Below the pieces are notes generated by a model. That model ran no database searches. It was not told the DNA's origin and worked only from the letters and a program-made list of their open reading frames with translations. A stretch of 64,000 bases of DNA from Roseivirga sp. 4D4 (GTDB taxonomy: Bacteria; Bacteroidota; Bacteroidia; Cytophagales; Cyclobacteriaceae): positions 2,835,001-2,899,000 of the forward strand of contig NZ_MDGP01000001.1 of assembly GCF_001747095.1 (NCBI RefSeq), given 5' to 3'. Below, piece after piece: positions 11,305 through 11,946 of this stretch. The position numbers and the translations under genes were made by a program. Each line of letters starts with the position of its first letter. Position 1 is the stretch's first letter.

Positions 11305-11946
11305 ATTAATTTAATCTGTTCTTACTTTTAAGAACAGTAATATCTTTTTTGTCAACCGGTGACCTTCCCGAGCTATGCCTCGGGACGCTTTAGCCAGCTG
11401 AGCCTGTCTGCCGACAGGCAGGCTAATCCCCCATTAATTTAATCTGTTCTTACTTTTAAGAACAGTAATATCTTTTTTGTCAACCGGTGACCTTCCCGAG
11501 CTATGCCTCGGGACGCTTTAGCCAGCTGAGCCTGTCTGCCGACAGGCAGGCTAATCCCCCATTTAATTTAACCTGTTCTTACTTTTAAGAACAGTAATAC
11601 TTTTCTGTCAACCGGTGACCTTCCCGAGCAATGCCTCGGGACGCTATAGCCAGCTGAGCCTGCCTGCCGACAGGCAGGCTAGTCCCCCATTTGATTTAAT
11701 CTGTTCTTACTTTTAAGAACAGTAATACTTTTCTGTCAACCGGTGACCTTCCCGAGCAATATCTCGGGATGCTCTAACCAACTGAGACTATCTGCCGATA
11801 GGCAGGCTAATCCCTCATTTGATTTAATCTGTTCTTACTTTTAAGAACAGTAATATCTTTTTTGTCAACCGGTGACCTTCCCGAGCTATGCCTCGGGACG
11901 CTCTAGCCAGCTGAGCCTGCCTGTCGGCAGACAGGCTAATCCCCTA
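11305..11946 (-). repeat. Tandem array of five tRNA-Ala-derived units (128-129 bp period)
   Basis: Units begin (plus strand, gtcaaccggtgacc) at 11351, 11479, 11607, 11735 and 11864, so the period is 128, 128, 128 and 129 bp. The spacer seen next to the intact tRNA (11305-11350) recurs between units and contains the hairpin ctgttctta-cttt-taagaacag. Read on the minus strand each unit has GGGGGATTAG, an inserted palindrome (CCTGCCTGTCGGCAGACAGG type), CTCAGCTGGCTA.AGCG, then TCCCGAGGCATAGCTCGGGA exactly where the anticodon arm belongs, then AGGTCACCGGTT. The acceptor 3' strand and half of the T arm are missing. The unit at 11735 is the most degenerate. The array is upstream of the tRNA in the direction of transcription. 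After it, 11947-12056 holds another imperfect hairpin (aacacc...ggtgtt) and no gene. Confidence 0.85.

Follow-up and report, generated by a model that had tools for sequence, protein, structure and literature searches.

The tandem array directly upstream of the tRNA-Ala(GGC) gene in the 64,000-nt stretch of Roseivirga sp. 4D4 analysed here (the window) probably belongs to an element that homes to tRNA genes, restoring one tRNA gene and leaving a hairpin-tagged remnant of it behind; its core would be a small GIY-YIG nuclease encoded by a free-standing ORF. The window covers contig positions 2835001-2899000 of a 4.58-Mb genome, and window coordinates are used below. On the minus strand it reads in the order promoter-like pair, leader, five hybrid units, tRNA-Ala(GGC), terminator-like hairpin, GIY-YIG ORF, sixth hybrid and second terminator-like hairpin:

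12058..12061, minus strand: TTTG, candidate -33 box of the tRNA-Ala promoter, 19 bp before TATATTTG
12031..12038, minus strand: TATATTTG, candidate -7 box (TAnnTTTG match), upstream of the whole array
11817..11946, minus strand: hybrid unit 1, promoter-proximal; PAL-B 11916-11935, inverted; PAL-A 11879-11898
11689..11816, minus strand: hybrid unit 2, the most diverged; PAL-B 11787-11806; PAL-A 11750-11769
11561..11688, minus strand: hybrid unit 3; PAL-B 11659-11678; PAL-A 11622-11641
11433..11560, minus strand: hybrid unit 4; PAL-B 11531-11550; PAL-A 11494-11513
11305..11432, minus strand: hybrid unit 5, adjoining the tRNA, same sequence as unit 4; PAL-B 11403-11422; PAL-A 11366-11385
11230..11304, minus strand: intact tRNA-Ala(GGC) (ARAGORN; Rfam RF00005, 63.2 bits)
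11201..11227, minus strand: terminator-like hairpin 3' of the tRNA
10936..11190, minus strand: GIY-YIG nuclease ORF, 84 aa (PF01541, 3.3e-17)
10862..10951, minus strand: sixth hybrid, a tRNA-Ala remnant reaching the tRNA 3' end; PAL-A 10912-10931 replaces the anticodon arm
10834..10861, minus strand: terminator-like hairpin 3' of the remnant, with 14-nt arms that are 100% complementary

The initial annotation had described five tRNA-Ala-derived units with a period of 128-129 bp beside one intact tRNA-Ala(GGC), and this description holds: five units on the minus strand fill positions 11946-11305 directly upstream of the gene, with spacings of 128, 128, 128 and 129 bp. Each consists of tRNA-Ala positions 1-10, the PAL-B hairpin, tRNA positions 11-27, the PAL-A hairpin, tRNA positions 45-56 and a spacer, so that the retained 5' acceptor strand, D arm and half T arm are confirmed, as is the separate hairpin in the spacer. 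PAL-A substitutes for the anticodon arm in every upstream unit as had been claimed, but the exact insert TCCCGAGGCATAGCTCGGGA is found in only three of the five, the remaining two having TCCCGAGGCATTGCTCGGGA and TCCCGAGATATTGCTCGGGA. Likewise, the second palindrome does sit at one fixed point in the D arm, but not in a uniform orientation, PAL-B of the promoter-proximal unit being the reverse complement of PAL-B in the two tRNA-proximal units. The copies at 11916-11935 and 11403-11422 share their insertion point and look as if a 20-bp imperfect palindrome had been flipped in place. ARAGORN and Rfam detected only the intact tRNA-Ala in the window, calling none of the hybrid units as tRNA, and at Rfam gathering scores the tRNA was the sole match, with no intron family in the window. 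As fragments of the tRNA match the flanks of the same tRNA with E values down to 2.6e-6, the pattern is more than chance. Across the genome the whole hybrid unit occurs only at the tRNA-Ala locus and junctions of this kind repeat between loci, which is unlike a set of scattered, unrelated repeats with random junctions. Beyond what had been noted earlier, the locus contains a sixth PAL-A hybrid (10862-10951), with a partial PAL-B-like insert in its T arm, and the GIY-YIG ORF between that hybrid and the tRNA.

The start codon of the nuclease ORF lies 10 bp past the terminator-like hairpin of tRNA-Ala, and its final codons and stop fall within the D arm of the tRNA-Ala remnant. In the window, no ORF of at least 80 aa other than the 84-aa GIY-YIG ORF lies between tRNA and remnant, and no integrase gene was found there. 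The catalytic domain is intact and under selection: residues Y7, Y18, R28, H32 and E64 are invariant among 24 sequences, and ten ORF pairs from five genomes indicate purifying selection (pN 0.11-0.22 against pS 0.63-1.14). The ORFs of relatives are about 80-100 aa long. UPF0213/Slx1-type GIY-YIG proteins are the closest solved relatives of the nuclease profile, namely PDB 1zg2 (3.8e-14) and 1ywl (1e-13), both titled 'Hypothetical UPF0213 protein', and 7cq2 (1.4e-7), an SLX1; the table entries make no link to tRNA genes. Four tested family members had no PHROG match, phage records held no relative of the window's ORF, and viral contigs held none with profile A1, which was made from tRNA-Ala-linked ORFs only. 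From its sequence and position, we infer that the nuclease belongs with the free-standing homing endonucleases, outside an intron or intein and beside a tRNA gene.

The same arrangement is repeated in the genome. A protein search found GIY-YIG sequences in six places including the window ORF, five of which adjoin tRNA genes (Ala, Leu-TAA, Ser-TGA, Val-GAC/Pro and Val-TAC), and the sixth (L006) has no tRNA gene in its stretch. At four of the five tRNA-adjoining loci a damaged, hairpin-bearing tRNA copy stands on the far side of the ORF. The Val-GAC/Pro locus (L004) has two hybrid units upstream of tRNA-Val that follow the plan of the tRNA-Ala units, since a CCCCGA-type hairpin replaces their anticodon arm and a PAL-B-like one stands between TTAG or TTAGT and CTCAG. 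Comparison of 37 tRNA genes of the loci examined with their own flanks revealed fragments at ten single genes and more in the cluster L084, mostly 5' pieces upstream and 3' pieces downstream. L084 is a second tRNA cluster (548400-552300 of the genome) with PAL-B-like palindromes in or next to T arms, despite which ARAGORN still calls tRNA-Thr(TGT) and tRNA-Cys(GCA) there.

Among close relatives, presence or absence of the ORF varies at the same tRNA-Ala site. The ORF lies downstream with a hybrid tRNA in the window's genome (G000) and in G007, G013, G014 and G017; a hybrid without ORF is found in G003 and G005 and, with a decayed hairpin, in G008 (L099); the ORF lies upstream with a 5' fragment in G016 and G018; and only a 5' fragment with hairpin is present in G001, G004 and G012. 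At other Roseivirga tRNA-Ala loci examined, for example that of G010, no element was seen (loci L100 and L105 were left out of this comparison). The initial annotation had proposed looking for the hybrid unit in related genomes, and the upstream unit is indeed present, singly, in G013 and G017, being fivefold only in the window's genome among the genomes examined. In G007, the hybrid and its terminator are approximately a copy of the tRNA and its terminator, except for the anticodon arm and the 5' end. Two elements are stacked in G013, and it is the second terminator there that matches the window's terminator at 11201..11227 (35 of 39 aligned columns identical, against 25 of 44 for the first).

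The element is not restricted to this tRNA gene or to this genus. Profile A1 had matches in 18 of 19 genomes of the genus, and 38 of the 91 matches with a locus were within 400 bp of a tRNA gene, nine amino acids being represented (one contig-end match without locus was left out). After rescoring with the wide profile A2 and counting each locus once, a same-strand tRNA was found within 1500 bp for 39 of 45 strong but 4 of 45 weak matches, at a cut of 1e-19 that was chosen after seeing the data; when overlapping loci were counted repeatedly the figures were 58/64 and 4/45. The other six strong matches had no same-strand tRNA within that distance. At the level of the class, 97 of 149 genomes had a match at E <= 1e-10. 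We examined 61 class loci, of which 29 came from the search and 32 were chosen by hand down the listing, some for their tandem matches; a tRNA was located within 300 bp in 54 and at 411 bp in one, and six had none in the stretch. Named records gave a tRNA within 300 bp in 22 of 31 loci and farther away in one, whereas eight had none in the stretch, several of these being at contig ends or beside runs of N. The records, mostly metagenome bins, are labelled as Bacteroidetes and genera thereof, Cloacimonadota, Ignavibacteria, Chlorobiota, Deltaproteobacteria/Desulfatiglandales and Patescibacteria/Azambacteria. In the Chlorobiota record there is only a hairpin-bearing remnant within the stretch, and at the two Patescibacteria loci (L131 and L134) no hybrid junction was detected.

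Once duplicate contexts had been removed (235 rows reduced to 199), 108 distinct ORFs had a tRNA within 300 bp, and every one of them was on the strand of that tRNA. Of 85 downstream-type loci, 56 have a second copy of the tRNA 3' end on the far side of the ORF, compared to 0 of 85 in a control stretch, and in 29 of the 56 the next 35 bp were also alike. The window locus itself has a complete tRNA, the ORF and then the stranded 3' part of the same tRNA. For hairpins, we defined a junction as a palindrome with 8 bases of the adjacent tRNA on its left and another 8 on its right, one mismatch being allowed per side. Junctions were present in 78 of 107 distinct loci (142 junctions), compared to 11 when the tRNA was read backwards and 6 when it was shuffled; duplicate loci were removed before this count and that of repeated 3' ends. 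The lack of any junction in 29 of the 107 loci, of an adjoining junction for 34 of the 100 ORFs in the tree described below, and of a repeated 3' end in 29 of the 85 downstream-type loci may be due to decay or to an over-strict test. The 144 distinct junctions fall into 73 of TCCCG..CGGGA type (with 50 inner sequences), 15 of CCCCG..CGGGG type, 13 of PAL-B type, 37 others and 6 short ones. In the TCCCG class the sixth pair is A-T in 61, T-A in 6, C-G in 5 and G-C in 1, and the stem thus varies in a paired way, in a detection that favours paired stems. Because one palindrome search pattern required TCCCG, the constancy of the outer stem cannot count as evidence that it is selected.

Within isotypes and clades the junctions recur at the same points, at 27/45 in Ala, 32/44 or 25/36 in Asn, 58/64 or 28/46 in Val, 50/59 or 31/45 in Asp and 35/41 or 37/48 in Met, and the hairpins of Val, Thr and Gly copies are at the T loop. 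A tree was built from 100 ORFs, on which the isotype label required 41 changes compared to a shuffled mean of 74.1 (none of 200 shuffles as low), and the hairpin site (D, anticodon or T arm) within isotype required 17 compared to 23.0 (65 ORFs; none of 300). Among the Val elements, for instance, three that have T-loop hairpins cluster together, and those that have anticodon-arm hairpins are placed in another group. The tree was made from few columns and has 9 of 97 inner branches starred; ORF matches with a stop, those shorter than 70 aa and duplicates had been left out beforehand. The ORF and the hairpin-tagged remnant travel as one unit. Physical linkage of hairpin and ORF could by itself account for this, however, and cutting by the nuclease at the hairpin does not follow from it.

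Hybrid arrays upstream of tRNA genes were also found elsewhere. Those at tRNA-Ala have three units (L140, 85 bp) or two (L243, 177 bp), those at tRNA-Asn three each (L184, 94 bp; L253, 90-92 bp; L269, 127 bp), and that at tRNA-Met four (L296, 93 bp), with two units at a tRNA-Leu (L302) and two at the tRNA-Val of L004 in the window's genome. In six of these arrays (L140, L184, L253, L269, L296 and L243) the hairpin junction upstream is found again downstream of the ORF; hairpins of one locus are identical or almost identical in sequence, and those of most loci differ from one another. The arrays fit a copying of one hybrid across the tRNA combined with recombination between direct repeats. The 177-bp unit of L243 repeats its own TAnnTTTG site, and each hybrid there may have its own transcript. 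Whole elements can be tandem as well: genome G137 has ten ORF copies 454-457 bp apart after tRNA-Met and four 379 bp apart after tRNA-Asn. On its contig C9 (L270 and L269) the tandem GIY-YIG units are nearly identical, and in the draft genome G008 (L184 and L185) near-identical GIY-YIG ORFs lie several kb apart beyond the tRNA-Asn array.

Two known systems each resemble a part of this element. SegB of phage T6 is a GIY-YIG nuclease that cuts within tRNA genes, and 23 of its 83 mapped sites share the motif RAWTSGAAC, the loss of which lowers but does not abolish cutting (PMC13096335). Its reverse complement, GTTCSAWTY, we read as the tRNA T-loop consensus. Tandem amplification of a tRNA segment requires SegB together with recombination proteins (PMC13096335). 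Like SegB and other free-standing GIY-YIG homing endonucleases, the present nuclease is located outside an intron, beside tRNA genes of many isotypes (PMC13096335, PMC2988022), and its tandem arrays at tRNA genes resemble the amplification caused by SegB (PMC13096335). Unlike SegB, the element resides on bacterial chromosomes, has an ORF of only about 80-100 aa at a fixed place, either behind the terminator of the tRNA or immediately ahead of the tRNA, and is accompanied by hairpin-tagged tRNA remnants; nor did the PHROG and phage searches above find any sequence kinship to phage seg proteins. The second system, the mORFs of fungal mitochondria, consists of mobile ORFs for endonucleases that bring along a second copy of the 3' end of a gene (PMC3630166). 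In both cases the ORF brings a replacement for the 3' part of the gene and strands the native 3' part downstream. The mORFs differ in that they target protein genes, and in the cited portion of that source the enzyme named is LAGLIDADG and no junction hairpin is described (PMC3630166).

The mechanism we propose joins the cutting in tRNA genes and the amplification known from SegB with the replacement of a gene end known from mORFs. The nuclease would cut the tRNA gene within one arm, which is predicted to be the anticodon arm in this tRNA-Ala family and the T loop in others, such as the tRNA-Val element of L005 with a predicted cut in GTTCGAAT. Recombination repair templated by the donor would then copy in the 3' part of the tRNA, the terminator, the nuclease ORF and a 5' or internal part of the tRNA, so that an intact tRNA would precede the ORF and a displaced tRNA remnant would come after it, in many cases together with a second copy of the terminator. 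The hairpin of the remnant, commonly TCCCGA-N-TCGGGA, is positioned exactly in the arm, at what would be the cut site, and may protect the extra copy against renewed cutting, prevent it from working as a tRNA, or do both. If the gene were recut, it could be repaired with the hybrid as template and rejoined to the leader, which would bring a leader, tRNA 5' half, hairpin and a portion of the T arm to lie ahead of the tRNA. Direct repeats of this kind could recombine unequally and so amplify the hybrid, leading here to five units between promoter and tRNA-Ala. The hairpin may act by removing the cut site from the spare copy, by abolishing tRNA folding, or by being recognised by the nuclease. Two observations run counter to a simple version of this: the supposed target is still present in the complete tRNA, which calls for another means of escaping self-cutting, and the hairpins are not of one sequence, only the 73 of 144 junctions mentioned above being TCCCG..CGGGA.

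It is the hairpin-tagged tRNA copies and the arrays that set the element apart from described free-standing homing endonucleases, and we recognised no description of chromosomal tRNA-linked GIY-YIG elements with hairpin-substituted tRNA copies in the open-access PubMed Central papers searched. Bacteria cannot do without their tRNA genes, which are very similar throughout, and a small nuclease able to live in them without killing its host would therefore show clearly how selfish DNA escapes self-cutting, a point that the SegB paper presents as an open question (PMC13096335). Hairpins in the arms of spare tRNA copies are a concrete and testable answer to it. If true, this would link tRNA-like fragments, small GIY-YIG genes and palindromes that are annotated apart, and would explain tandem ORF and hybrid arrays that resemble assembly errors. 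A further reading, which we put forward tentatively as a possible but not a likely one, is that the tagged copies are a working part and not debris, so that nuclease, tagged remnant and array would form one system, spread over several phyla, that also seeds the dispersed TCCCGA palindromes. The tRNA-flanked hairpin would then serve the GIY-YIG protein as a tag or a ligand, in the form of a DNA cruciform or of RNA; it would tell spare, self copies from the target tRNA and guide repair, and the upstream arrays would persist as decoys or as repair templates that cannot be cut. Conceivably the tRNA flanks are guide-like and the hairpin is a handle for the protein.

Selection at the level of RNA is another explanation, compatible with the homing element but in itself doubtful: the hairpins might insulate the true tRNA from pairing with its broken halves, or the leader might regulate. 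The array lies between the tRNA and a TTTG/TAnnTTTG pair, which we take to be the Bacteroidota-type promoter consensus (-33 and -7). TATATTTG is the sole TAnnTTTG on the transcribed strand from 12200 to the tRNA; the TTTG-N19-TATATTTG pair spans 12061-12031, the same spacing is readable in the relative G003 (L090), and TATATTTG is also found upstream of tRNA-Ala in relatives. As the array is situated between the only promoter-like site of that interval and the tRNA, it should be part of the pre-tRNA leader. A position dependence of the hairpins also agrees with an effect on RNA, since among ORFs with an assigned site the hairpin is in the D arm in 10 of 14 upstream-type and in the T arm in 25 of 52 downstream-type ones. 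Folding predictions, the values of which vary with the leader start, point both ways. Deleting the hairpins lowered the predicted acceptor pairing of the true tRNA by at least 0.1 in 6 of 14 leaders, most strongly from 0.59 to 0.00 (L088) and from 0.52 to 0.00 (L060), but had little effect in seven and raised pairing in one; native pairing was above the shuffled-hairpin mean in 9 of 14, with shuffled hairpins doing better in three. For the window array, the predicted pairing was 0.64 or 0.01 depending on a small change of the leader start. Furthermore, the downstream remnants are beyond the terminator-like hairpin and should be outside the tRNA transcript. The earlier suggestion of a structured, tRNA-like RNA upstream of tRNA-Ala would fit the position of the array, and the folding predictions for it are unstable.

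It has also been considered that REP-like palindromes independently invade dispensable tRNA copies at preferred points (AG^CT of the D arm, the anticodon arm and the T loop) with no part for a nuclease, which we regard as improbable. REP elements are similar in being short dispersed palindromes tied to a small DNA-acting gene, but they are GTAG-tagged and linked to RAYT tyrosine transposases (PMC3733652), whereas the gene here is GIY-YIG; by eye, GTAG is absent from the hairpin ends of PAL-A and PAL-B in the window. The behaviour of PAL-B fits invasion, as it matches 26 further places beyond the tRNA-Ala locus (weakest E 0.56), of which four or more fall within further tRNA remnants, is inserted at AG^CT in tRNA-Ala, -Val and -Asp copies, and prefers the D arm in 10 of 13 PAL-B-type junctions. 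PAL-A with the tRNA-Ala-type loop, in contrast, occurs genome-wide only in the six copies of the tRNA-Ala locus, and of the two palindromes only PAL-B is dispersed. TCCCGA-N-TCGGGA has 25 sites in the genome, ten within 600 bp of a tRNA gene, six of which are those of the tRNA-Ala locus. In the class, such palindromes exceed a backwards control in 106 of 149 genomes, and palindrome-rich genomes without the nuclease do exist (65 palindromes and no match at 1e-10 in G067). The excess nevertheless rises with nuclease count (Spearman 0.47, p 1e-9 over the 149 genomes, ignoring relatedness and base composition), with a median of 8 palindromes in genomes with the nuclease and 1.5 in those without; G137, with 0 palindromes and 16 matches, is an exception in the other direction. 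Independent invasion is further opposed by the near-identity of upstream and downstream hairpins within array loci together with their difference between most loci, and by hairpin sites that track the nuclease tree within isotype. The initial view that palindromes enter tRNA copies at fixed points is therefore borne out, for many tRNAs and species, but a REP-type origin applies at most in part, to the dispersed PAL-B: PAL-A is common to the upstream units and the downstream remnant, and the hairpin site follows the neighbouring nuclease.

Integrative islands leave tRNA 3' fragments, but that the fragments derive from tyrosine-recombinase islands later filled by unrelated repeats is very unlikely, as 5' fragments are present in addition to 3' ones, all 108 ORFs near tRNAs are on the strand of the tRNA, and the 84-aa ORF is alone between tRNA and remnant in the window. 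An assembly artefact or chance is scarcely credible: units 4 and 5 share one 128-bp sequence without a difference, for which reason the copy number of five is as assembled, but units 1-3 differ through substitutions and indels, single units of this kind are present in G013 and G017, and independent arrays are found in other genomes.

Outside the tRNA loci, PAL-B is nested inside another dispersed repeat at L022, L032, L033 and L024. A separate repeat, TCCCGATGAATCGGGA, is located at 9547-9562 of the window, 1.3 kb from the tRNA-Ala element, and is one of six identical dispersed copies in the genome.
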